A DNA stretch of 37,755 nt from a virus, in IMG/VR virus record IMGVR_UViG_3300036859_000158, positions 1-37,755 of that record. The stretch is one strand, 5' to 3'. Every line of letters begins with the position of its first letter. The stretch's first letter is position 1. The notes beneath the pieces are model-generated. The model was not told the origin of the DNA. It made no database searches and saw only the letters and a list, made by a program, of their open reading frames with translations. Both the position numbers and the translations under genes were made by a program. Positions 25,308 to 36,778 of the stretch are shown here, in pieces.

Positions 25308-25672
25308 GTCCGCTCCTCGAACTCCAGCACCATGAGCTGCAGGCGCGTGAAGCCGGGGATGCCAAGCCGCAGCCCGTAGATCTTCACGACAGCCCCGTTT
25401 TTCGGCACCTGGATGTCGTGCTTCGCCTCCAGCATGCAGGAGCAGCCGTCCGCCGTGCGGATCAGGATGAACGTGCGCTGCCCGTGGATGGCCGAGTCGA
25501 TGATCGTCACCACTTCGGCCCACTCGGCTTCGGCCAGGCCGTAGAGATGGCACTCGTGCGCAGGGGGGACGGCCGCTTCCCCCCTCGCCATGCCGCTCAC
25601 GATCACCAGGAGCCAGGCCATCAAGATGAGCACGACGAAGAACGCATTCCAGAAGAGCTGCCGTTTCGTCAT
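25304..25672 (-). CDS. Exported or membrane-anchored protein, unknown
   Basis: The 122-residue product has an N-terminal hydrophobic segment (about 7-27) preceded by Lys/Arg, then a soluble Cys-containing beta domain (H-E-C-H, C-S-C-M). A cleavable signal peptide or anchor is likely, so the protein acts outside the cytoplasm, unusual in an early phage operon. It overlaps the previous gene by ATGA. No family is recognised. Confidence 0.6.
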   Translation of the reverse strand: MTKRQLFWNAFFVVLILMAWLLVIVSGMARGEAAVPPAHECHLYGLAEAEWAEVVTIIDSAIHGQRTFILIRTADGCSCMLEAKHDIQVPKNGAVVKIYGLRLGIPGFTRLQLMVLEFEERT

Positions 25673-26280
25673 ATCGCCACCCCGTAATCAGATTCGCCGT
25701 CATTGGCCTGACGACACGGTGCGCAGAGCCGGAACTTCTTCCGGTTCGGACTCACGAACCGACGGTCACATTTGAGACAGCGCTCCTTCGTGGGATGGGC
25801 ACAGGCGCGCCAGTCCGCCTCGTGCCGGAAGGCCAATTGGCTCAGGACGGTGGCCGGCGCATAACGTCGGTCATAGCCACGGCGCGGGCCGCGCGCCAGC
25901 GGGATCCTGGCCAGCGCCAGCGCCTGATTCCATGACCCGAAGCGTTTCTTCACCACGTCCAGGCTGAAGAGCGCATCCTCCCGGAAGCTCTCCGAATTGA
26001 ACAGCGGACCCAGCCTCCGGTAGGCGCGTCGGAGGCCTGCAAGGATCTCGGCGTCGCTATAGGTGCAGTGCTGGCGATAGGTGCGGCACGGCACAAGCCC
26101 CGCGCGCGCCGACGCCTTGGCGAAGTTGCCGAAGCGGTTGTTGATCAGCGACAGCGAGGCCCGGCCGTGGCTGATGTAGGCCTTCGAGCCGTAGTGCTCC
26201 GCGCCGACCTCGCGGCACACCCGCCGCAGGTCCTCCAGGAGATCCTCGTCAAAGAATACCCGTCCCCTATGGCCTGCCAT
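25669..26280 (-). CDS. Homing-endonuclease-associated repeat protein with zinc ribbon
   Basis: The product has 203 residues. Two helical repeats (about 11-62 and 76-125) both end in a R-F-G-(N/S)-(F/W)-x-x-A motif, the sign of the repeat domain found beside HNH homing endonucleases. The C-terminus has a zinc ribbon (Cys168, Cys171, Cys186, Cys189). There is no HNH or GIY-YIG motif, so it is probably a DNA-binding protein, not a nuclease. In the absence of a recognisable Mor/C activator it is a candidate regulator, which is inference. Confidence 0.65.
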   Translation of the reverse strand: MAGHRGRVFFDEDLLEDLRRVCREVGAEHYGSKAYISHGRASLSLINNRFGNFAKASARAGLVPCRTYRQHCTYSDAEILAGLRRAYRRLGPLFNSESFREDALFSLDVVKKRFGSWNQALALARIPLARGPRRGYDRRYAPATVLSQLAFRHEADWRACAHPTKERCLKCDRRFVSPNRKKFRLCAPCRQANDGESDYGVAI

Positions 26281-26500: not shown

Positions 26501-26751
26501 CAGCGCGCCGCCTCCTTCGCCTTTGCCTTCCGTTTGTTCATCAGCTCAGTGATGAACGTGATGATGTCTTGGAGGCAGGTTTTCTCAAACACGCACTCTG
26601 GCGAGGGGTAAAAAGCGTAGCACCGCCAGCGCCCAAACCAGCGTACCTGTCCGAGCAGATGCCCGCCATCCTTCGCCGTCACGTCGTAGATAGACGTCTT
26701 GCGATCTGGAGGGCCAACGATCAAGTTAAAATCTATCCACTTCCCCGTCAC
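26500..26751 (-). CDS. Conserved small phage protein (aromatic W-R-C-Y-A-F motif)
   Basis: The 83-residue product has the pattern G-Q-V-R-W-F-G-R-W-R-C-Y-A-F-Y-P followed by a helix with C-L-Q-D-I-I-T-F-I, which I recognise as a small protein family common in prophages. The GTG start overlaps the gemA stop as GTGA. The biological role is not known. Confidence 0.6.
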   Translation of the reverse strand: MTGKWIDFNLIVGPPDRKTSIYDVTAKDGGHLLGQVRWFGRWRCYAFYPSPECVFEKTCLQDIITFITELMNKRKAKAKEAAR

Positions 26752-27275
26752 GTCGCCTCTTTCGCCTTCCAGCCGCGATCGCGCATTGCTTTGAGCCCTT
26801 CGATCAGCTTGTTCGCCTCCGCGCGCGTCTGCGCCCAGGGATGCCCACAGATGCGCCGGGAGAGGCCCAGCCGCGCCTCGCTCGCGTGGATCCCCAGGTC
26901 GGCCCAGAGGTGCTCGATCATGTGGAGCTGCTCGACCGTGGCCGGCTCGTCCGGCCGCCGCTCATCCCGGCCGTGTCTTGCGTTCCGCAGTACATAGGGC
27001 AGCGCCTCCCCGATCGGTGTCAGCGGTTTCGTCGCCGCGCCAGAGGCCGCGCGCCCCTCGTCGCCCTGCAGCGCCTGGAGCACCGCGACGAGCTGATGCT
27101 CGTCCATGTCCCGGCAGCTCCAGCGGCCGGTCACGGCAATCTGGATGTTGCGACGGTCCTGGTCCGAGATCCCGCGCCGCTTTGCCACGCTGTGGATCTT
27201 GCCCAGCAGCCACTTCCGCTTGTCGTAGGCCGGCCGCTCGCCTCTGTAGCTACGTGTGCGCACACGTGTCCTCAT
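26748..27275 (-). CDS. gemA: GemA-like regulatory protein (Mu gp16 family)
   Basis: The product has 175 residues. The pattern L-L-G-K-I-H-S-V-A-K-R-R-G-I-S-D near 23-38, M-D-E-H-Q-L, L-P-x-V-L-R-N-A, then a second half with Q-L-H-M-I-E-H-L-W-A-D-L-G matches GemA/Gp16 (DUF1018) of Mu-like phages, where it affects host gene expression and DNA supercoiling. The N-terminus is Arg-rich and its codons contain a 16-bp perfect palindrome (27252-27267). Position in the early/middle operon agrees with Mu. Confidence 0.85.
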   Translation of the reverse strand: MRTRVRTRSYRGERPAYDKRKWLLGKIHSVAKRRGISDQDRRNIQIAVTGRWSCRDMDEHQLVAVLQALQGDEGRAASGAATKPLTPIGEALPYVLRNARHGRDERRPDEPATVEQLHMIEHLWADLGIHASEARLGLSRRICGHPWAQTRAEANKLIEGLKAMRDRGWKAKEAT

Positions 27276-27798: not shown

Positions 27799-28043
27799 TT
27801 CTTCCCCCTGGCGGCCGCCGCCGCGCGGCAGAGCCGGTCCACGGCCTGCTTGAACTTCGCCGACGTCACGGTGTCTGGCATCTGCTGGTGGATCACGAGC
27901 AGGAGCAGCGTGGCCGCCTTCAGCATCCGGCCGGCATTCTTGTGCAGCGGGCAGCGATCCAGCTTGGCGCGCGGAATGTCGCCGGGCTCGATGCCGATCA
28001 CCGTGATCTTGCAGCCGCACTTGTCGAGTCCCCAGCGCGCCAT
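27795..28043 (-). CDS. Cys-containing small phage protein, unknown
   Basis: The ATG at 28043 overlaps the previous stop as TGATG. The 82-residue product begins with a compact Cys-rich part (C-G-C near 9-11, then C-P-L-H) that may bind zinc, followed by two helices with a basic end. No family is known. Confidence 0.55.
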   Translation of the reverse strand: MARWGLDKCGCKITVIGIEPGDIPRAKLDRCPLHKNAGRMLKAATLLLLVIHQQMPDTVTSAKFKQAVDRLCRAAAAARGKK

Positions 28044-28210
28044 CAGTTCGCCTCCACGGCTTCGCGCCAGTTCGCGCCCCATTCCCGTCGGCAGAGCTCT
28101 TCGAGCCGGACCTGCTCGTCGGCGGTGAACTGCCAGCGCAAACGCCAGGCGGTGCGCAGGTTGTCCCGGCGGATCGCCTCGTTAATCTGCTCGGTCGTCG
28201 GTTGCGCCAT
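28043..28210 (-). CDS. Small helical phage protein
   Basis: The ATG at 28210 overlaps the previous stop as TGATG. The 55-residue product is amphipathic, with two helices (I-N-E-A-I-R-R-D-N-L and E-Q-V-R-L-E-E-L-C-R-R-E-W-G) joined by a W-R-L-R-W-Q-F segment. No function is recognised. Confidence 0.55.
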   Translation of the reverse strand: MAQPTTEQINEAIRRDNLRTAWRLRWQFTADEQVRLEELCRREWGANWREAVEAN

Positions 28211-28312: not shown

Positions 28313-28402
28313 TCAGGCGCCCCCCGTCATTGTCAGGACGGCGCCGTGGAGCGCTCGCTCCGCTCGTGTTCGCGCGCCGCTCTCGCGTCCATACGCGCTC
28401 AT
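28313..28402 (-). CDS. 29-residue peptide, possible
   Basis: The ATG at 28402 overlaps the previous stop as ATGA and the frame ends two bases before the membrane peptide. The product is Ala/Arg/Gly-rich with no clear fold. The coupling argues for translation, but the length is too small for a firm call. Confidence 0.35.
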   Translation of the reverse strand: MSAYGRESGARTRAERALHGAVLTMTGGA

Positions 28403-28575
28403 GCCTTGGCCCCCACCACCGGCCAGCGGTCCATGAGCCGCAGGCGCTCTTCGATCAGCCCGTTCACGCACCGCTCGCAGATGCCGACATTGACGGCGCC
28501 CAGGAAGCGGACGCTGATGTCCGTCGAGGGGCAGAACACGCACTGCTCGATCTTCTTCGCCAGCTCATTGCTCAT
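28399..28575 (-). CDS. Stand-alone ClpX-type zinc-finger protein
   Basis: The ATG at 28575 overlaps the previous stop as ATGA. The product has 58 residues. Residues 11-46 follow the ClpX zinc-binding domain: C12-x2-C15 and C33-x2-C36 with F-L-G-A-V-N-V-G-I-C between them, like the K-L-I-A-G-P-x-V-Y-I-C stretch of ClpX. The spacing between the Cys pairs is 17, against 18 in ClpX. There is no AAA+ domain. In Mu the ClpX zinc domain helps to recognise MuA and other substrates, so a free copy could bind ClpX partners. This is inference. Confidence 0.65.
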   Translation of the reverse strand: MSNELAKKIEQCVFCPSTDISVRFLGAVNVGICERCVNGLIEERLRLMDRWPVVGAKA

Positions 28576-28871
28576 GCTTCCAGCCCCCACGTCTCCCGGT
28601 GCGGATGGTCCAGGCCCTCAATCCAGGCGACCGCCACGGCCGCCACCTGGATCAGCTCCTTCCGGAGATCGCCGCCATCCAGCACCTTGCCGTGCTTCCC
28701 GAGCACGGCCCGCGCCGCCTCGCCGACTTCCTCGGTCAAGACCGCAAGGGCGTACCAGTCGGAGCTTTCTGGATCGGCGCAGGTGAACTCGAACCGCCCC
28801 TCCGCCTTGAGCATGTCCTGGCGCGCCCGCTCGGCGCTGATTTCCTGGAAGATGGCGTCCCGCGGGCTCAC
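28572..28871 (-). CDS. MazG-like helical phage protein
   Basis: The GTG at 28871 overlaps the previous stop as GTGA. The 99-residue product has the pattern E-I-S-A-E-R-A-R-Q-D, then L-T-E-E-V-G-E-A-A-R-A, then E-L-I-Q-V-A-A-V-A-V-A-W-I-E, as in small phage MazG-like proteins. The E-E-V-G-E part corresponds to the metal-binding E-x-x-E helix of MazG-type pyrophosphatases. It may clean the nucleotide pool; the catalytic set is not complete enough to be sure. Confidence 0.65.
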   Translation of the reverse strand: MSPRDAIFQEISAERARQDMLKAEGRFEFTCADPESSDWYALAVLTEEVGEAARAVLGKHGKVLDGGDLRKELIQVAAVAVAWIEGLDHPHRETWGLEA

Positions 28872-29062
28872 GCTGTCACCGCATCAGGGCACGGCCAGCC
28901 GCCCTTCCCCTTGCATATCTCACAGGGCCTCACGCCGTGCGCCTCCTCGGGATAGCGATGCGGGCAGCAGTCTTCGCCACAATCTCTCTCCACAAAACCG
29001 TCCTCGCAGTTGCCGCACGGATGCCACTCGCCGTCGATGCAATCTGGATTCTCACAGCTCAC
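28868..29062 (-). CDS. Cys-rich zinc-binding small protein (DnaJ-type motif)
   Basis: The 64-residue product has a GTG start with GTGA overlap. It holds ten Cys residues, with C-x-x-x-x-C, C-G-N-C, C-C-P-H and C-E-I-C-K-G-K-G-G-W-P-C spacing. The C-x-x-C-x-G-x-G repeat resembles the DnaJ central zinc domain and small phage proteins of that type. Probable structural zinc sites; function unknown. Confidence 0.6.
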   Translation of the reverse strand: MSCENPDCIDGEWHPCGNCEDGFVERDCGEDCCPHRYPEEAHGVRPCEICKGKGGWPCPDAVTA

Positions 29063-29469
29063 GCCTCGCGCTCCTCGGGCTCCTTGTACGCGAGCCCCAG
29101 CTCGCGGAGTGCCGCGCGCCCGGCCTTCGTCAGGATCGCGCCGAAGTACGGCATGCGCTCCGCTCCCGTACCCCTAAACATCATCGGCTTGGTGATGCTG
29201 ATCAGCTCCGGGGCTCGTCTCTCGACCTCGCGCAGATCGCGGGCGATGAACATGTCCCATACGTCGGCCCCGTTCTGGACATTCCGCATCGCCTCGAGGA
29301 GTCCCTTGCGCAATCTTGGCGGCCGCGCGAGGGGTGGAGGCTCACCTGGGGCGCATGAGGAGCGACGAACGCCCGCATGGGCGCGGCGCGCCGAGTCTTG
29401 CAGCGGACCACGAGCTGCACCCCGAGCAGCGGCTCTCCCTCCTCGCAGCTTCTTCACGTGCTGGCTCAT
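29059..29469 (-). CDS. Hypothetical protein sharing its C-terminus with the PolX-like protein
   Basis: The 136-residue product has an Arg/Ala/Pro-rich first third of poor quality and a helical second half (V-W-D-M-F-I-A-R-D-L-R-E-V-E-R). It ends R-E-L-G-L-A-Y-K-E-P-E-E-R-E-A, nearly identical to the end of the neighbouring nucleotidyltransferase, because a stretch of about 50 bases is duplicated (29059-29109 and 29466-29515). The real start may be downstream of the first ATG. Function unknown. Confidence 0.5.
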   Translation of the reverse strand: MSQHVKKLRGGRAAARGAARGPLQDSARRAHAGVRRSSCAPGEPPPLARPPRLRKGLLEAMRNVQNGADVWDMFIARDLREVERRAPELISITKPMMFRGTGAERMPYFGAILTKAGRAALRELGLAYKEPEEREA

Positions 29470-29515
29470 GCCTCGCGCTCCTCGGGCTCCTTGTAGGAGA
29501 GCCCCAGCTCGCGGA
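29059..29515. repeat. 50-bp direct repeat at the ends of two adjacent genes
   Basis: The stretches 29059-29109 and 29466-29515 are about 94% identical and 407 bases apart. Each encodes the last 15 residues of a gene plus its stop and the ATGA/GTGA coupling site, so the repeat transfers both a protein tail (R-E-L-G-L-x-Y-K-E-P-E-E-R-E) and a translation-coupling junction. The tail is native to the PolX-like protein. Confidence 0.8.
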
Positions 29516-29951
29516 AGATCTGTCCCTCGGTCGTGACGTGGATGTGCTCACCGCGCCGGCCGGTGAAGCCATAGCCGCTGGCGTGCAGCTTCATTCCTAG
29601 CTCCTGCGCGCGCCGGCACAGCCTGATGTTGTGGCCCATCGAGCCCGTGCGGATTAGGAGCAGCGTGGCCCAGGTCTCCTCGTCGGCCAGGTAGAAGTCC
29701 ACCGGGATGCCTTTATAGTTGGCCAGTCGCACGATCCGATCGCCAAACTTCTCTGGCTGGCGCTGCTGGAGCATCCAGAGGCGCTGCTTGATCGCCGGGT
29801 GCTGGCCGAACTTCGGGAGCAGGACCAGGTCGATGTCGTTGACCACCGGGCGCAGGCGGCGGATGGAGCCGGCGATCTCGATCTTCTCGCAGAGCGGCGC
29901 CAGCTCCTCGCAGAGCGACGCGGCGATCTTCAGCGCTTGGTCGCGGTTCAT
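29466..29951 (-). CDS. Minimal PolX-type nucleotidyltransferase
   Basis: The product has 161 residues. Catalytic residues of the Pol beta superfamily are visible: Gly28-Ser29, Asp39-x-Asp41 in V-V-N-D-I-D-L-V-L, and Asp85 in I-P-V-D-F-Y. The end R-E-L-G-L-S-Y-K-E-P-E-E-R-E matches the conserved thumb tail of family X DNA polymerases. It has no 8-kDa or helix-hairpin-helix domain, so it is about half the usual length. It may repair gaps left by transposition, or transfer nucleotides; this is inference. Both ends overlap the neighbours by ATGA. Confidence 0.8.
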   Translation of the reverse strand: MNRDQALKIAASLCEELAPLCEKIEIAGSIRRLRPVVNDIDLVLLPKFGQHPAIKQRLWMLQQRQPEKFGDRIVRLANYKGIPVDFYLADEETWATLLLIRTGSMGHNIRLCRRAQELGMKLHASGYGFTGRRGEHIHVTTEGQIFRELGLSYKEPEEREA

Positions 29952-30756: not shown

Positions 30757-31139
30757 GCCGGCGCCTTCGCCTCCTCGACTTCCATGTCCAGCGAGAGCTG
30801 CAGGAGAATGGCGTGCGGGGTGTTCTTGCGCAGGCGCGCCAAGCGTCGCGCGATGCTGATGATCCGGTGCACGAGCTGCTGCTCTGCGCGCGCCTGCTCC
30901 TCCGCCGTGGTGATCCAGTAGTAGCCGTGCGGATCTCCGGTCGCCGAGCCGATCGGGTAGCCGTGCTCCTCGATCAGATGCTTCACGAGCTCCTGGACCG
31001 TGCGGTCGTCGATCCCGGTGCGGCGGGCGACTTCGTCCACCGGCAGCGCGAACGCCAGCCCCGGACAGGCGCGGATCTCCGCCAGCACGAGCGACTCGCC
31101 TTCGCTCAAATTGGAAAGGAGCAGATCGTCCGCGCACAT
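30753..31139 (-). CDS. Winged-helix DNA-binding protein
   Basis: The product has 128 residues. The region about 30-65 reads V-D-E-V-A-R-R-T-G-I-D-D-R-T-V-Q-E-L-V-K-H-L, an HTH with a good recognition helix, followed by a wing (G-D-P-H-G-Y-Y-W-I). This resembles small phage winged-helix proteins in the replication region. The start overlaps the Gam stop as TGATG. Role in regulation or replication inferred. Confidence 0.65.
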   Translation of the reverse strand: MCADDLLLSNLSEGESLVLAEIRACPGLAFALPVDEVARRTGIDDRTVQELVKHLIEEHGYPIGSATGDPHGYYWITTAEEQARAEQQLVHRIISIARRLARLRKNTPHAILLQLSLDMEVEEAKAPA

Positions 31140-31666
31140 CAGGCCGCATCCTCCGCTTCCTCGGCGGTATCCTTCAGCAAAGCAGCGACGAGTTTGTCCA
31201 CGTCGCCGTCCACGGGCTTGATGACGACCACCTCGCCCGTATCCTCGACCGTGACGCCGAGGCGCTTGAGGTCCGCCGCGTCGAGATCCGCGAGCGCCTT
31301 GGCGATCGGCTTCTCTTTGGTCTGGATCAGGAGCTCGGCCTGCGCCGCCGGCAGGAGCTTCTTGATCCGCGCGACCAGCACGGCGTCATCCTCCCATTCG
31401 ATCTTCCCTGAGCCCTTGCGGTAGCCCACCTTGACGCCGTGGAAGATCTGCGTCTTGGGTTTGCCGAACAGGGCCGGCTCCGCCTCGATCGCCGCCTGGA
31501 GCTTCGCCTGCCGGGCCTTCGCCACCGCGACCGCGCCCTTGATGGCCCCGATCTCCGCGCGCTTGGCCCGCTCCAGCTTGTCGTTCAATCGTTCGACGAT
31601 CGCGGTCAGATGGCCCCGCGCGTCGGCATAGTCCTTCGTCAGCTTCTCGATGTCCGCCAGTGTCAT
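31139..31666 (-). CDS. gam: Mu Gam-like DNA end-protecting protein
   Basis: The ATG at 31666 overlaps the previous stop as TGATG; the upstream open frame is shadow. The 175-residue product has a long N-terminal coiled coil, then V-K-V-G-Y-R-K-G-S-G-K-I-E-W, a K-x-K-E-K-P-I-A-K-A-L helix and V-V-V-I-K-P near the end, the plan of the Mu Gam/host-nuclease inhibitor family. Gam coats linear DNA ends and protects them from RecBCD; it resembles Ku. Its place after MuB matches Mu order. Confidence 0.8.
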   Translation of the reverse strand: MTLADIEKLTKDYADARGHLTAIVERLNDKLERAKRAEIGAIKGAVAVAKARQAKLQAAIEAEPALFGKPKTQIFHGVKVGYRKGSGKIEWEDDAVLVARIKKLLPAAQAELLIQTKEKPIAKALADLDAADLKRLGVTVEDTGEVVVIKPVDGDVDKLVAALLKDTAEEAEDAA

Positions 31667-31749
31667 CAGAGCTCCTTCCCTCCGAGCATCCATCCACCGC
31701 CGAGGATAATGGCCCATCCGCCGATTAGCAGAATCACGTCCGCGATCAT
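31666..31749 (-). CDS. 27-residue membrane peptide
   Basis: The ATG at 31749 overlaps the previous stop as ATGA. The 27 residues are mostly Ile, Leu, Gly and Trp, forming one membrane helix, ending G-G-K-E-L. The overlap with the Gam start supports its translation. Mu has a small kil gene in this neighbourhood, but there is no sequence evidence for that identity here. Confidence 0.5.
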   Translation of the reverse strand: MIADVILLIGGWAIILGGGWMLGGKEL

Positions 31750-31916
31750 GGCGCCACATCGCCCTCTACCCACTCCGCCAAGGCCTCGAAGAGCGCCTGC
31801 TCCGGACCGAGAGGGGGAGGCACGGCCGGCTCGCTGGCGACCATGCCGACGGCAAGCGCCGCTCCCAGGAGGCACCCAGCCAACAGCGCGCTCGCACTGA
31901 TGGGCCATCGGCTCAC
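31746..31916 (-). CDS. Small exported/lipoprotein-like peptide
   Basis: The GTG at 31916 overlaps the previous stop as GTGA. The 56-residue product has a hydrophobic leader (A-L-L-A-G-C-L-L-G-A-A-L-A-V-G) with a possible lipobox Cys at 15, then a Pro-rich linker and an acidic helix. It lies beside another membrane peptide. Small envelope-targeted genes next to Gam may be host-inhibiting functions; this is inference. Confidence 0.5.
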   Translation of the reverse strand: MSRWPISASALLAGCLLGAALAVGMVASEPAVPPPLGPEQALFEALAEWVEGDVAP

Positions 31917-32356
31917 GGCTTCCCTCCGTTCTTCGCCGCCCGGAGTTGCTCGATCGTGACACCGGCCTTCGTGAGCTCCTCCCGCCAGCGCGCCACGAAG
32001 GGCGAGCCCTTCATCCTGCGATGCAGCAAGAGGAGGTTGTCCTTGGCGACGCCGCTCACGCGGTGCATCTCGCCGTAGGACAGGCCGCGCCCTGTCGGAG
32101 GCTTCAGCGCCAGCAAGGCCCAGGCCTGGATCGGCGTGCGGGCCGTCTCCAGGGGCGTCCCATACTGATCGGAGAACTTACGGATGCAGCACTTGCAATA
32201 GTACCGACGCAGGACGCCGTTGATGACGCCCCGCTGCGGGAGAATGATCAGGTCCTTCCCGTCGAAGCAGCGGGGACAGATGGCCGTCCCATCGGTCTCG
32301 TGCCAGTTGGCGCGCCGGAAGGTTTCGGCCAGCTTCTCGACCAGCTTACGCGGCAT
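31913..32356 (-). CDS. DDE-less IS1595-like zinc-ribbon/HTH protein
   Basis: The product has 147 residues. A zinc ribbon (Cys27, Cys30, Cys54, Cys57) is followed by Y-G-T-P-L-E-T-A-R-T-P-I-Q-A-W-A-L-L-A-L and an HTH (L-S-Y-G-E-M-H-R-V-S-G-V-A-K-D-N-L-L-L-L-H). This layout parallels the N-terminal half of the IS1595-type transposase at 37290, but the catalytic DDE half is absent. It overlaps the MuB end by 11 bases. I infer a DNA-binding protein derived from a transposase and kept by the phage, perhaps helping target choice or regulation. Confidence 0.75.
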   Translation of the reverse strand: MPRKLVEKLAETFRRANWHETDGTAICPRCFDGKDLIILPQRGVINGVLRRYYCKCCIRKFSDQYGTPLETARTPIQAWALLALKPPTGRGLSYGEMHRVSGVAKDNLLLLHRRMKGSPFVARWREELTKAGVTIEQLRAAKNGGKP

Positions 32357-33278
32357 ATTTGAGCGCCTTCTGTACGTGCTCGATCGTCATCTTGCCGCCT
32401 GACTTCGTGGCCAGGATGCCGGCGATCTGCAGGAAGTTGGACATGCGCCGCACGCTGGTGAGGAGCTGCGGGTCCTGGCGCAGGAGCCTCATGACGGGCT
32501 CGATGTCGCCCTCGCGGAGCACGGCGCGCAGGATCTGGACCAGGTCGGCCTCGATGATCGGCGGCAGCTCCCAGATGCGGCCGGAGACGCGCGAGGCGAG
32601 CTGCTCGAACTTCTCGGACGTGCCGGTCAGGTGGCGCTTCAGGTCGTTGATGCCGACCAGGAGCATGCCGACGCCGGTCTCGTCGTAGACGTGGCGGAGC
32701 GCGTCCAGCGCGGTGAAACAGAGCGTGTGGGCCTCGTCCACGATGATGCAGCGGCCGGAGCCTGTTAGGCGCGCCAGCACGCGCTTCATCAGCGCGTACT
32801 TGGTGCCGGTCTCATGGACGCGGATCGCCTCACAGAGCTTCTGCAGCACCGCGCGGTCGCCGATGTTCCAGGCCTTGATGAGGATGATGCTGCGGTCCTG
32901 GCTGACGATCTCCTGGATCGTGCGGCTCTTGCCCCAGCCGGAGCCCCCGATGAGCGCGGCGAGCTGGCCGAACTTGTGGCAGAAGCCGACGGCCTTCATG
33001 ACTTCCTTGGCCTGGCGCGTCTCGACGAACGGGAGCTTGAGCAGCGTGCCGTCGTCGCGCGCATCCTCGCGCTCGACGTAGGCCTTGAGCGCGGCGGCGA
33101 GGCCGGCGAGATCGCCCACGTCCTTGCGGTTGAGGAAGTTGCTGATCGTTGCGGGGGACATGCCGATGCCGCGCGCGATGTCGGCCTGGGAGAGCGGCTT
33201 GCCCTTGGCCTCACGCCGGGCGATGAGATGCTCCAGGCGCTCGCGGGTCAGCTCGATGTCGTGGGCATAGAGGCTCAT
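32346..33278 (-). CDS. MuB-like AAA+ target-DNA selection ATPase
   Basis: The ATG at 33278 overlaps the MuA stop as ATGA. The product has 310 residues. An N-terminal Xre-like HTH (about 28-55: L-S-Q-A-D-I-A-R-G-I-G-M) is followed by Walker A at 111-118 (G-G-S-G-W-G-K-S) and Walker B at 177-182 (C-I-I-V-D-E) and sensor-like G-I-N-D. This is the layout of MuB, which binds target DNA as ATP-dependent filaments and gives it to the MuA transpososome. It is translated directly after the transposase. Confidence 0.92.
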   Translation of the reverse strand: MSLYAHDIELTRERLEHLIARREAKGKPLSQADIARGIGMSPATISNFLNRKDVGDLAGLAAALKAYVEREDARDDGTLLKLPFVETRQAKEVMKAVGFCHKFGQLAALIGGSGWGKSRTIQEIVSQDRSIILIKAWNIGDRAVLQKLCEAIRVHETGTKYALMKRVLARLTGSGRCIIVDEAHTLCFTALDALRHVYDETGVGMLLVGINDLKRHLTGTSEKFEQLASRVSGRIWELPPIIEADLVQILRAVLREGDIEPVMRLLRQDPQLLTSVRRMSNFLQIAGILATKSGGKMTIEHVQKALKYAA

Positions 33279-35161
33279 GATTCCATCAGCTCCTTGTGGA
33301 TGGCGTCGCGCTCGGCGGCGCTGGTGTCGACGCCAGGCGCCGGCAGGGCTGAGATCGCCTCGGCGCGCGGCGGCGCGGACCGCTCGAAGCCGGTGATGGG
33401 CCGGTTGACCGTGCCGCCGGGCTCTGGCGCGATCTTCGGCTTCAGCGCATACACCTTGCCGGCCGGGCGCTGGTTCACGACCAGGCGGGCGGCCTGGTCC
33501 GGGTCCACGGCGATCGCGCGGTGCTGCGCGTAGTCGCGCAGGATCTGCCGGGACTTCTTGCGGCGCCGGCCGATCTCCTGCTGCTCCTGCTCGGACAGGC
33601 CCATCGAGAAGGCCTTGTCGGCCTTGGCCTCGCAGAGCAGCGCGTTGTTCTTGAAGACGCGCAGCGCGCCGATGTTGCCCGCGTCGTAGCGGATCTCGAC
33701 CTTTTGGTCGAAGTGTGGGATCAGGGCGTCGTGCCAGTACTTGAAGCCGAACAAGTGGATGCCGTCCCGGTAGACCTTCACCGGCTTGTGCTTCATGAGG
33801 ATGCAGTCCAGCGCGGCGGCGTCCGGAATGCGCTTCTCGACGCCCTGCCACAGCGAGCGCGGCGTCGCGCCGTCCATGCCCTCGCCGTGGTGCTCGCGGT
33901 CGTGGTAGGCCTCGATGCACTCGGCCACGCGCTGGCGGCATTCATCCAGAGACATGATCAGGCCGTTCTTGACCTCGGCGTTGAGCTTCTCGGGCCGCTC
34001 CTTGTTGTCGCGTCCGCACCAGCCGGGCAAGGTGCGCTCCCAGGCCGGCAGCGTGTGGCCGAACCAGGGCTCGATGGCCTTCGACCAGGGCGAGCGGACC
34101 TGCGCGTGCGTGACGGTGATGTTCAAGAGCGCGAGCACGGCGCGGCTGTCGGCATTCAGCGTAACGTCGCGGCTGTACTTGGTCTTCCCGCCCCAGTAGG
34201 TGCAGGTGTAGTCCTTGCCGTTGTCCATATAGAGGCGCTTGGGGAGGCCGAAGCGGAGGATGCCGGCGCGCAGCGCGAGCGCGATCGTGTGGGCGTTGGG
34301 GACCCAGTCCAGGTGCCAGCCGACGACCGTGCGGGAGCGCAGGTCCATCCATGCGGTCAGCCACGGCCGGAACGTCTTCCCGCCGTCCGTGACGAAGAGG
34401 TCCAACACGCGGTGGTCGCCGACCCACATTTCGCCGACGGCCAGATCCAGATAGTCGCGGTGGATCTTCGGCTCGGCCTGCGCGCGGTAGGCCTGCTCGC
34501 CGTGGCGGCGCTCGAGGACGACGGCCTGGGGAATCGTCGCGAGGTAGCGGTTGATCGTGGCGACGCAGGGCGCCGGGATGCGCGCCTTCTCGCAGAACTT
34601 CTCGACGTTGCGATGGACGGTCGTGATGGAGGGGCAGGAGGGGCGCAGGTACTCGTCCTCGATGACGCTCTTCAGCGCGTCGGAGATCGCGTAGAACTGG
34701 CCGGCCTTCTTGCCCCAGCCGGGCAGCAGGCCCGCGAAGCCGGCCTCCCGGTACTTGTCCACCCAGCCATAGAGGGTGCTGCGGCCTTCGCCGTGCTGCG
34801 CGGCGAGCGCTTTGAGCCGGGTGGAGACGGCGTCGCGCGATTCCATGATGGCGAGGGCGTCCAGCACAATCGGCAGGCGGCGGAGCGCTTCGTGGCGCGC
34901 GCGCTCCGGGTATTCGGCCAGGTTCGGCGAAGCAGAATCTGCAGCCGGCGGCTGCAATTCGCGCTGCCAGTAAGTGAGCTGCGCGGCGTCCGGGAGCGAG
35001 AGCAGGCGGAAGAGCTTGACGTGCCGGCCGTTGGCGGCCTTCTCGTCGGAGGCCTTCACGGCGAACAGGCCGTCGTCGATCTTCCGATAGATGGTCGCGC
35101 GGTCGAAGCCGGTGAGCTCGATGGCCTGCTCGATCGTGACGTAGGGATCGCGCTCGATCAT
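33275..35161 (-). CDS. MuA-like DDE transposase
   Basis: The product has 628 residues. N-terminal HTH domains (R-A-T-I-Y-R-K-I near 21-28 and a helical region at about 90-145) bind the phage ends. The RNase H-fold core carries Asp249 (M-W-V-G-D), Asp313 (Y-M-D-N-G-K-D) and Glu364 (K-A-I-E-P-W-F-G), which match MuA D269, D336 and E392. The C-terminal part (about 450-628) is a beta-barrel and tail region like that of MuA, which meets MuB and ClpX. It performs integration and replicative transposition. Confidence 0.95.
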   Translation of the reverse strand: MIERDPYVTIEQAIELTGFDRATIYRKIDDGLFAVKASDEKAANGRHVKLFRLLSLPDAAQLTYWQRELQPPAADSASPNLAEYPERARHEALRRLPIVLDALAIMESRDAVSTRLKALAAQHGEGRSTLYGWVDKYREAGFAGLLPGWGKKAGQFYAISDALKSVIEDEYLRPSCPSITTVHRNVEKFCEKARIPAPCVATINRYLATIPQAVVLERRHGEQAYRAQAEPKIHRDYLDLAVGEMWVGDHRVLDLFVTDGGKTFRPWLTAWMDLRSRTVVGWHLDWVPNAHTIALALRAGILRFGLPKRLYMDNGKDYTCTYWGGKTKYSRDVTLNADSRAVLALLNITVTHAQVRSPWSKAIEPWFGHTLPAWERTLPGWCGRDNKERPEKLNAEVKNGLIMSLDECRQRVAECIEAYHDREHHGEGMDGATPRSLWQGVEKRIPDAAALDCILMKHKPVKVYRDGIHLFGFKYWHDALIPHFDQKVEIRYDAGNIGALRVFKNNALLCEAKADKAFSMGLSEQEQQEIGRRRKKSRQILRDYAQHRAIAVDPDQAARLVVNQRPAGKVYALKPKIAPEPGGTVNRPITGFERSAPPRAEAISALPAPGVDTSAAERDAIHKELMES

Positions 35162-35742: not shown

Positions 35743-36045
35743 ATGGTCCATCGCGGGAAACGTGAGTTCGTCGGAGCCATCAAGGTCATGCATCAGTACC
35801 GTGAAGCGTTCGCCGCAGCGCTCCAGAGATTGGAGCGGCGCGGCGGCAGGAAGGACTGGGCGCGCTGCCTATCGCTCCTGGCCGACTATCTCGCCGAGCT
35901 GGCACATTGCAATGAGCTGTACCTATATGACGTGGCGGATCGCGTCGAGAAGATCGAGCGATGGATAGAAAGGGGGCCAAAACTGTCTTCAAGGCCAGGC
36001 GCTCGGCGTCCATTGCTCGGCGGAACTCGGTGGCCGCGATCATGA
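35743..36045 (+). CDS. Plus-strand helical protein opposite the early operon
   Basis: The ATG at 35743 lies behind AGGCGGAG; a TTG at 35722 is also in frame. The product is about 100 residues, of which the first 80 are helical with Glu, Arg and Leu (A-L-Q-R-L-E-R-R-G-G, L-A-D-Y-L-A-E-L-A-H) and GC-rich third codon positions like the phage genes. The last 20 residues look like shadow of the other strand. It runs against the early operon. Function unknown. Confidence 0.45.
   Translation: MVHRGKREFVGAIKVMHQYREAFAAALQRLERRGGRKDWARCLSLLADYLAELAHCNELYLYDVADRVEKIERWIERGPKLSSRPGARRPLLGGTRWPRS
35786..36043 (-). CDS. Short ORF coupled to ner-like gene (first part credible)
   Basis: The ATG at 36043 overlaps the ner-like stop as ATGA. 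The first 25 residues (M-I-A-A-T-E-F-R-R-A-M-D-A-E-R-L-A-L-K) look like real coding sequence; from about residue 30 the codon use and Arg/Ser/Pro-rich composition look like antisense shadow of the plus-strand gene. It may be a real gene whose 3' part was altered, or only a chance frame. Confidence 0.3.
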   Translation of the reverse strand: MIAATEFRRAMDAERLALKTVLAPFLSIARSSRRDPPRHIGTAHCNVPARRDSRPGAIGSAPSPSCRRAAPISGALRRTLHGTDA

Positions 36046-36246
36046 CGCCTTTTCCTCGGGCCAGATCTGCTCCGGGCGAAGCCCGCAGGCTGCCGCGATC
36101 GCGCGCCTGGCCCACTTCGTCTTCTTGCGCCCGTGCAGGACATTGCTGAGGTAGGGCCTTGAGACGCCCAGCCGCCTGGCGATCTTGGCGATATTAAGGT
36201 TGTGCTCTTCGCGGAGGGCCGAAATAGGAACGGAAGCGTAGCCCAT
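36040..36246 (-). CDS. Ner/Cro-like transcription regulator
   Basis: The ATG at 36246 is chosen because the upstream TTG (36264) lies inside the promoter. The 68-residue product contains an HTH: L-N-I-A-K-I-A-R-R-L-G-V-S-R-P-Y-L-S-N-V-L-H (about 16-37), similar to Cro/C1-type and Mu Ner regulators. It is the first leftward gene, divergent from the repressor, and would dampen early transcription. The -10 box ends only 7 bases before the ATG, so the transcript may be leaderless. Confidence 0.75.
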   Translation of the reverse strand: MGYASVPISALREEHNLNIAKIARRLGVSRPYLSNVLHGRKKTKWARRAIAAACGLRPEQIWPEEKAS

Positions 36247-36253
36247 GGGCGGG

Positions 36254-36288
36254 ATAATAGACAAACAGTCTATCTGTTGTCAAGGACA
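36254..36288 (-). promoter_or_regulatory. Early promoter with overlapping operator palindromes
   Basis: On the minus strand TTGACA (36278-36283) and TATTAT (36254-36259) are 18 bases apart, a good sigma-70 promoter for the early operon. The palindrome TAGACAAACAGTCTA (36258-36272) covers the -10 side and TGTCAAGGACA (36278-36288) the -35 side; an extra half-site ATAGACA follows at 36291. These are probable binding sites for the repressor and the Ner-like protein. No convincing rightward promoter was found, though the repressor must have one nearby. Confidence 0.7.
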
Positions 36289-36316: not shown

Positions 36317-36778
36317 ATGGTGAAATATCAAGGCTTTAAGGATCGCCTGGAAGCTGCTATACGGAACAGGCGCCTAAAGAAAAAGGAGTTCGCCACCCTC
36401 GTCGGCGTGACCCCGAGAGCGTTGAGCCGCTATCTGCACAGCGAGGCGTTGCCATCTCGATTCGTCACGATGAGAATGGCTGAGCTGCTCGGCGTCACGA
36501 CGGACTGGCTACTCAACGGCAACACGTCAGGCTTGGCGGGGGATCGCATCCAGGATGTGGCGGCCGGCTATGGTACTGACGGCTCGTTCAAGGCTCGGCT
36601 CGCGGCCATCGCCGACGAGCTGACCGACGAGGAAGAGCGCCAGACAGTCATGCGATGCGCGGAGGCCTTGCGCGTCGGCCCGATGGAGATCCGCGCGCAC
36701 CTGATCAATCAGATGAAGATGGTGGAACACTTGCTCATGCTGGCCGCCAAGGAGACGCGGAAGAAAAAATCACGGTGA
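36317..36778 (+). CDS. Xre-type lysogenic repressor
   Basis: The product has 153 residues. An N-terminal HTH (K-K-E-F-A-T-L-V-G-V-T-P-R-A-L-S-R-Y at about 22-39) is followed by M-A-E-L-L-G-V-T-T-D-W-L-L-N-G, the typical Xre/CI pattern. The C-terminal half is helical, without a Ser-Lys S24 self-cleaving domain, so induction would not be by RecA-type cleavage. It lies at the early end and faces away from the ner-like gene, as the c repressor does in Mu. It is the best candidate for the immunity repressor. Confidence 0.8.
   Translation: MVKYQGFKDRLEAAIRNRRLKKKEFATLVGVTPRALSRYLHSEALPSRFVTMRMAELLGVTTDWLLNGNTSGLAGDRIQDVAAGYGTDGSFKARLAAIADELTDEEERQTVMRCAEALRVGPMEIRAHLINQMKMVEHLLMLAAKETRKKKSR

Follow-up and report, generated by a model that had tools for sequence, protein, structure and literature searches.

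The early region of the Mu-like phage examined for the current report contains a gene for a 58-residue protein that carries a stand-alone C4 zinc domain of the ClpX type. In our judgement this is a real accessory protein, divergent within a type that is known from phages but for which no function has been described. Deposited phages and IMG/VR contigs widely encode short stand-alone domains of this kind. The DNA on which these conclusions are based is the IMG/VR virus record IMGVR_UViG_3300036859_000158, positions 1 to 37,755, and we refer to the whole of this stretch of 37,755 nucleotides as the "window".

The zinc-protein gene and its phage setting

The gene occupies positions 28399..28575 on the minus strand and is a real early or accessory gene of the phage, recognized from its open reading frame (ORF), its codon statistics and the comparison of its ClpX-profile scores with those of shuffled sequences, at a Pfam score that lies below threshold. 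Translation from the ATG yields MSNELAKKIEQCVFCPSTDISVRFLGAVNVGICERCVNGLIEERLRLMDRWPVVGAKA, in which the cysteines are spaced C-x2-C-x17-C-x2-C and no AAA+ part is found anywhere in the ORF; an upstream GTG at 28590 is an alternative start that would extend the product to 63 aa. The GC content by codon position is 0.60/0.41/0.93, as compared with 0.66/0.45/0.94 for the MuA gene of the same phage, and the codon log-odds of 0.35 per codon falls within the range for the phage's long genes, whereas the other two minus-strand frames at this locus give values of -0.49 and -0.62. The start of the gene overlaps, in an ATGA, the stop of the gene at 28572..28871 (minus strand), which lies upstream in the same transcription unit and encodes 99 aa with similarity to phrog_2831 (of unknown function) and, weakly, to MazG. 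The zinc-protein gene therefore looks translationally coupled, inside a series of small minus-strand genes. A search for viral relatives of the upstream neighbour found none. On the downstream side, at 28043..28210 on the minus strand, is a small ORF for 55 aa for which the family search gave no match.

The series of small genes is located between the genes for a Mu Gam-like end-protection protein (31139..31759; Pfam Phage_Mu_Gam) and GemA (26748..27275; Pfam GemA), the latter forming the downstream border of a variable early stretch. The series is also downstream of the genes for a MuA-type transposase (33275..35161; Pfam Mu-transpos_C, rve and others) and a MuB-type AAA ATPase, which is contained in an ORF at 32346..33941 (Pfam AAA_22, with relatives in L002 and L010, below) and whose true start is probably close to 33280, where MuA ends. 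All four genes are on the minus strand. Candidate repressor genes of the phage are located at 36040-36264 and 36317-36778. With MuA, MuB, Gam and GemA all detected by Pfam, the IMG/VR contig is Mu-like, and an earlier note on this DNA was right in placing the zinc protein in the early region of such a phage. The nearest relatives of its MuA are encoded by the contig L002 in IMG/VR (54% over the alignment) and, in cellular DNA, by the prophage L010 of a Nitrospira MAG (55%), so that a Nitrospira-like bacterium is the likely host.

Elsewhere in the window, positions 25669-26280 encode a protein with two HNH_repeat stretches (a homing-endonuclease-associated repeat; Pfam, 57 bits), and positions 28868-29062 encode a protein of 64 aa in which some ten cysteines form repeated motifs of the CxxC type; by eye it resembles a DnaJ-type zinc centre, and its PHROG match is very weak. 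A 52-nt direct repeat, 94% identical between its copies at 29057-29108 and 29464-29515, occupies the 3' ends of two neighbouring genes whose products both terminate in RELGL[A/S]YKEPEEREA; the upstream gene of this pair, at 29466-29951, encodes a DNA polymerase beta thumb domain, and its final portion was apparently duplicated onto its neighbour. From 37398 to the right end of the window runs a frame whose zinc motif (CPECRAG...CNACKLDFTVRTGTIFE) is like that of insertion sequences, and the contig may therefore run into an insertion sequence or host DNA at this end.

A survey of other Mu-like early operons, as suggested in the earlier note, turned up no clear copy of the zinc-protein gene in the Mu-like phages that were checked: none is present in the early regions of the related phages L002 and L003 or of the prophage L010, and the Mu, D3112 and RcapMu genomes lack it as well. 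BalMu-1 has a weak candidate, roughly 30 residues long and scoring 13.6 bits, at its far right end and outside the early operon. The gene is therefore an optional accessory and no general part of the control of Mu-like transposition. Between the MuB region and Gam, L002 (7815-8015) and L010 (13362-13577) encode a conserved CxxC-x18-CxxC protein of 67-71 aa that is missing at that place in the window and that has no family match above cut-off. It scored 12-15 bits with profiles that included stand-alone domains, and was rejected as a relative of the zinc protein when Pfam gave it no ClpX match.

Similarity to the zinc domain of ClpX

As judged from the aligned sequences, the similarity of the 58-aa protein to the ClpX zinc domain is weak, yet in register and beyond chance, and the protein is probably a divergent member of the ClpX-type family. 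Its four cysteines form two CxxC pairs, the first of them C-x-F-C, in register with those of ClpX, and it keeps the Phe of C-x-F-C, the Val-Arg core and the Ile-Cys ahead of the second pair. Shared with the N-terminal domain of ClpX (PF06689; PDB 1ovx, 2ds5-2ds8) are the C4 arrangement, C-x-F-C, Val-Arg and Ile-Cys-x-x-Cys-Val, and also the succession of knuckle, hairpin and helix that is predicted for the zinc protein. The differences are the absence of the AAA+ motor, a spacing of x17 in place of the x18 of E. coli-type ClpX, which leaves a one-residue gap in the alignment, the loss of the Gly that follows the first Cys pair and of the pocket residue Ile46, and a score under the Pfam cut-off. 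The earlier note's description of a 58-residue ClpX-like zinc protein without the AAA+ part is thus borne out for the ORF, the motif and the similarity, but has to be amended for the spacing, which is x18 in ClpX, and for the Pfam score, which is sub-threshold.

With Pfam zf-C4_ClpX (PF06689) the protein scores 15.5 bits (E 0.016), short of the gathering cut-off of 27, and with the RING family zf-C3HC4_3 it scores 16.3 bits, likewise below that family's own cut-off. In NCBIfam its only match to a ClpX model reaches 10.8 bits, where the cut-off is 359. A phmmer search of PDB returned three matches, all of them ClpX zinc domains, at non-significant E values of 0.39-0.65. A profile of 31 cellular ClpX domains, drawn from Nitrospirota loci, gives the protein 13.9 bits (shuffle maximum 12.6), and a profile of six stand-alone phage domains gives it 20.1 bits (shuffle maximum 15.2); with either profile, none of 5000 shuffles in which the cysteines were kept fixed equalled the score of the real protein, and in an earlier run one of 2000 shuffles equalled its score with the cellular profile. 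With 12 stand-alone viral domains in the profile, the score rises to 28.1 bits, against a maximum of 19.3 in 5000 shuffles, a result that is partly built in because six of these 12 domains had been picked by a DNA pattern modelled on the zinc protein itself. As a control for this bias, chance ORFs that fit an x17 DNA pattern which the zinc protein fits as well were scored with the cellular ClpX profile; they reach -0.4 bits at most, and the zinc protein, with its 13.9 bits, falls between them and the real x17 relatives (26-64 bits). The zinc protein is also the best match (E 4e-7) in a set of 6139 reading frames taken from the window together with 16 Mu-like sequences, and the other Cys proteins of the window's early region have scores near zero. 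No close homologues of it were found in IMG/VR, in INPHARED or in 296 genomes of the phylum to which L010 belongs.

Structure prediction yields weak and in part circular results. From the single sequence, AlphaFold gives a poor model (pLDDT 51.9) for which Foldseek finds no match. With an alignment of nine relatives the pLDDT is 74.6, residues 31-50 reach 84-91, and the order of elements is knuckle, hairpin and helix. Foldseek likewise finds no match to the better model at E<=0.001; in its ranking the ADD domain of DNMT3A comes first and ClpX third (E 0.74), and ADD, parkin and ZZ domains are among the structural matches. Structural re-alignment against 239 PDB chains puts the ClpX N-domain first (Z 4.0, rmsd 4.9 over 54 residues) and the next-best chain at Z 3.2, a ranking that is partly circular, as the alignment of relatives used for the model includes ClpX domains. 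The different zinc fold that the earlier note had named as a refutation was not seen, and the first place of the ClpX N-domain is a weak one that has to be read with this circularity in mind.

Stand-alone ClpX-type zinc domains in other viruses

The earlier note was aware of no described phage protein of this kind, but stand-alone ClpX-type domains are carried by many phages and IMG/VR contigs, and in phages they have been annotated as "Clp protease", "protease" or hypothetical proteins. The ClpX zinc domain matches PHROGs 6797, 12435 (annotated "protease"), 5259 and 20296, as well as 88 phage records, many of which represent stand-alone genes and some of which represent full ClpX or short host-like contigs. 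Stand-alone copies of 65 aa occur in the Pseudomonas phages PP9W2 and BUCT566, a copy of about 62 aa adjoins CII in a Klebsiella phage, and copies of about 110 aa are present in phages P88, PhiR44_2, D6 and PhiR41_1, that of P88 being better conserved than the window protein; the 109-aa copy in phage Alize bears the label "ClpX C4-type zinc finger protein". Klebsiella phage ST974-OXA48phi18.2 and the IMG/VR loci L098, L103, L105, L235 and others likewise belong to this group. Several of the copies in Pseudomonas and Klebsiella phages adjoin replication, CII or Nin genes.

A scan of IMG/VR for the x18 pattern yielded at least 48 short complete ORFs, of which at least 33 are ClpX-like (with a median length of 66 aa and 28 distinct domains among the matches listed), together with at least 65 fused or long ORFs. 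The corresponding scan for the x17 pattern yielded 24 besides L098, L101, L103 and L105, or about 28; the x17 relatives L098, L099, L102, L103 and L105 score 25.5-54 bits with Pfam zf-C4_ClpX. Many viral contigs also encode full-length ClpX-like proteins of ~400 aa with both the zinc domain and a Walker motif, as is seen in L112, L119-L123, L141-L143 and others.

The zinc protein of the window shares with the stand-alone phage proteins its small size (mostly 53-165 aa in the latter), its one zinc domain and its lack of a motor, and its x17 spacing is found in several of the stand-alone viral relatives too. It differs from them in its setting, a Mu-like early region, in its Ile46 position, which stays hydrophobic in nearly all of the x18 proteins, and in its greater divergence, the recognized members scoring 26-64 bits with the cellular ClpX profile. 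None of the loci with stand-alone domains, which are short, was visibly Mu-like in tblastn searches with MuA, MuB, Gam and GemA. In a search mainly of the open literature, we found no paper on the function of stand-alone ClpX zinc domains of phages.

Insights into what such domains might bind can be drawn from E. coli, where the dimer of ClpX zinc domains docks lambda O, MuA, SspB, RssB and trigger factor, and where a side pocket of the domain is lined by Phe16 and Ile46 (PMC7804408). Among the matches listed, the Ile46 position is hydrophobic in 27 of the 28 stand-alone viral domains and in 98% of the motor-fused ones. The high proportion among the stand-alone domains indicates that their pocket is generally kept, which fits a role in docking or as a decoy. 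The ORF of the zinc protein is short, lies in a phage genome and encodes one ClpX-type domain without a Walker motif, as is usual for the stand-alone type. The hydrophobic Ile46 position, a common feature that we took as a criterion of our own for that type, is replaced here by a charged residue, Glu43, or Arg44 if the helix moves by one. The pocket Phe is retained, but the pocket has been altered in this copy. The MuA protein of Mu ends in LEQNRRKKAI, whereas that of the window phage ends in ERDAIHKELMES (the C-terminus being ...AERDAIHKELMES, without the RRKKAI tag) and those of its relatives (L002 4334-6274, L010 10001-11959) end in DQLLNG, also without RRKKAI. The best-known ClpX tag of MuA is therefore absent from these phages.

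Possible functions of the zinc protein

The reading that we favor, with a probability of about 40%, is that the protein is a single C4 zinc domain with a treble-clef fold, descended from the N-terminal domain of ClpX or close kin to it, which in its motorless form would act as a small, probably dimeric, protein-docking module produced early in infection. Such a module would engage a partner protein at a short hydrophobic segment of the latter, as the ClpX N-domain does, and without a motor it would hold or shield the bound partner and not unfold it. The expected partner would be an early or replication protein of the phage, or else the zinc domain of ClpX itself or one of its adaptors, and the docking surface would have diverged in the window copy. 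Zinc binding, dimerization, docking and the identity of the partner are putative for the 58-aa protein.

A more specific proposal is that the protein serves as a ClpX decoy or anti-adaptor, which might occupy the substrates or adaptors of ClpX, or pair with its zinc domain, and so delay repressor degradation or the remodelling of MuA. The ClpX-type similarity, the retention of the pocket Phe, the location of the gene among the early genes of a Mu-like phage and the shared use of the ClpX zinc domain as a hub where lambda O, MuA, SspB, RssB and trigger factor dock (PMC7804408) would all be in keeping with such an activity. However, the Ile46 equivalent is charged, the window MuA is without the RRKKAI end of Mu, and Mu-like phages have no general need of the protein, since Mu, D3112, RcapMu, L002, L003 and L010 are without a copy and BalMu-1 has nothing beyond the 13.6-bit candidate at its far right end. 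We consider this proposal possible but on the whole unlikely. The mixed rings with ClpX that the earlier note envisaged are impossible for a protein without the AAA+ part, and at most mixed zinc-domain dimers might form.

It seems rather unlikely that the window encodes a generic small zinc protein, of a nucleic-acid-binding kind or similar to the translational regulator Com of Mu, whose likeness to ClpX reflects convergence on the treble clef. Treble clefs are common to many families, as the ADD, parkin and ZZ domains among the structural matches illustrate, and the Pfam score for the ClpX family is below threshold and about equal to that for the RING family zf-C3HC4_3. Convergence of this sort is nevertheless at odds with the gap between pattern-matched random ORFs (no higher than -0.4 bits) and the zinc protein (13.9 bits) in the cellular ClpX profile, with the near-zero scores of the other Cys proteins of the early region and with the lack, at E<=1, of a Pfam match to the Com family.

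Redirection of host transcription is a frequent early step of phage infection, and the zinc protein might be a treble clef that targets a sigma factor or RNA polymerase in the manner of Bacillus CsfB/Gin, in which a ClpX N-domain-like fold is combined with sigma-factor binding. CsfB (PDB 5N7Y) is a 64-aa dimeric treble clef with a cysteine spacing of x15 (C14 to C30), whose closest structure is the ClpX N-domain and for which the authors doubt common descent (PMC5890618). The zinc protein, a putative C4 treble clef, resembles it in its small size, about 60 aa, and in functioning without additional domains. Unlike the zinc protein, CsfB has the x15 spacing, a sporulation function and no profile similarity: with the stand-alone profiles the CsfB sequence scores -0.3 to 2.5 bits, as compared with 25-28 bits for the zinc protein, and Pfam shows no Gin match for the latter at E<=1. 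We regard an anti-sigma role as quite improbable. A zinc finger of the DksA/TraR type (PF01258), binding in the secondary channel of RNA polymerase, is very improbable indeed: the x17 spacing is that of DksA, and the best phmmer matches in Nitrospirota genomes are DksA-like (E 0.01-0.05; 23.3 bits with a profile made from those hits), but this identity is largely refuted because the alignment register is wrong, the second CxxC of the zinc protein falling on the first CxxC of DksA when an unbiased DksA set is used, with which 19 of 5000 shuffles score as well, and there is neither a coiled coil nor a Pfam zf-dskA_traR match at E<=1.

Implications for phage biology

ClpXP controls replication and the choice between lysis and lysogeny in several temperate phages. 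Beyond the protein-docking module that we favor for the window copy, the stand-alone copies found beside replication, CII or Nin genes would suit the protection of an O-like initiator. It is conceivable that many kinds of phage have repeatedly taken the ClpX N-domain as a separate early protein, which would occupy the docking step and so shield replication proteins of the phage, such as lambda O-like initiators and MuA-like transposases, from ClpXP, the window protein being a fast-evolving version in a Mu-like phage with its pocket retuned to a partner of its own; as a general scenario this strikes us as quite unlikely.

The main gain from the analysis outweighs the window protein itself, and consists in the recognition that lone ClpX zinc domains are common, mis-annotated and apparently unstudied. 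For further work, the best-conserved copies known from E. coli phages are preferable to the protein of the window. If stand-alone copies compete at the docking point of ClpX, they would represent a general and simple means by which phages might tune a central protease of their hosts.
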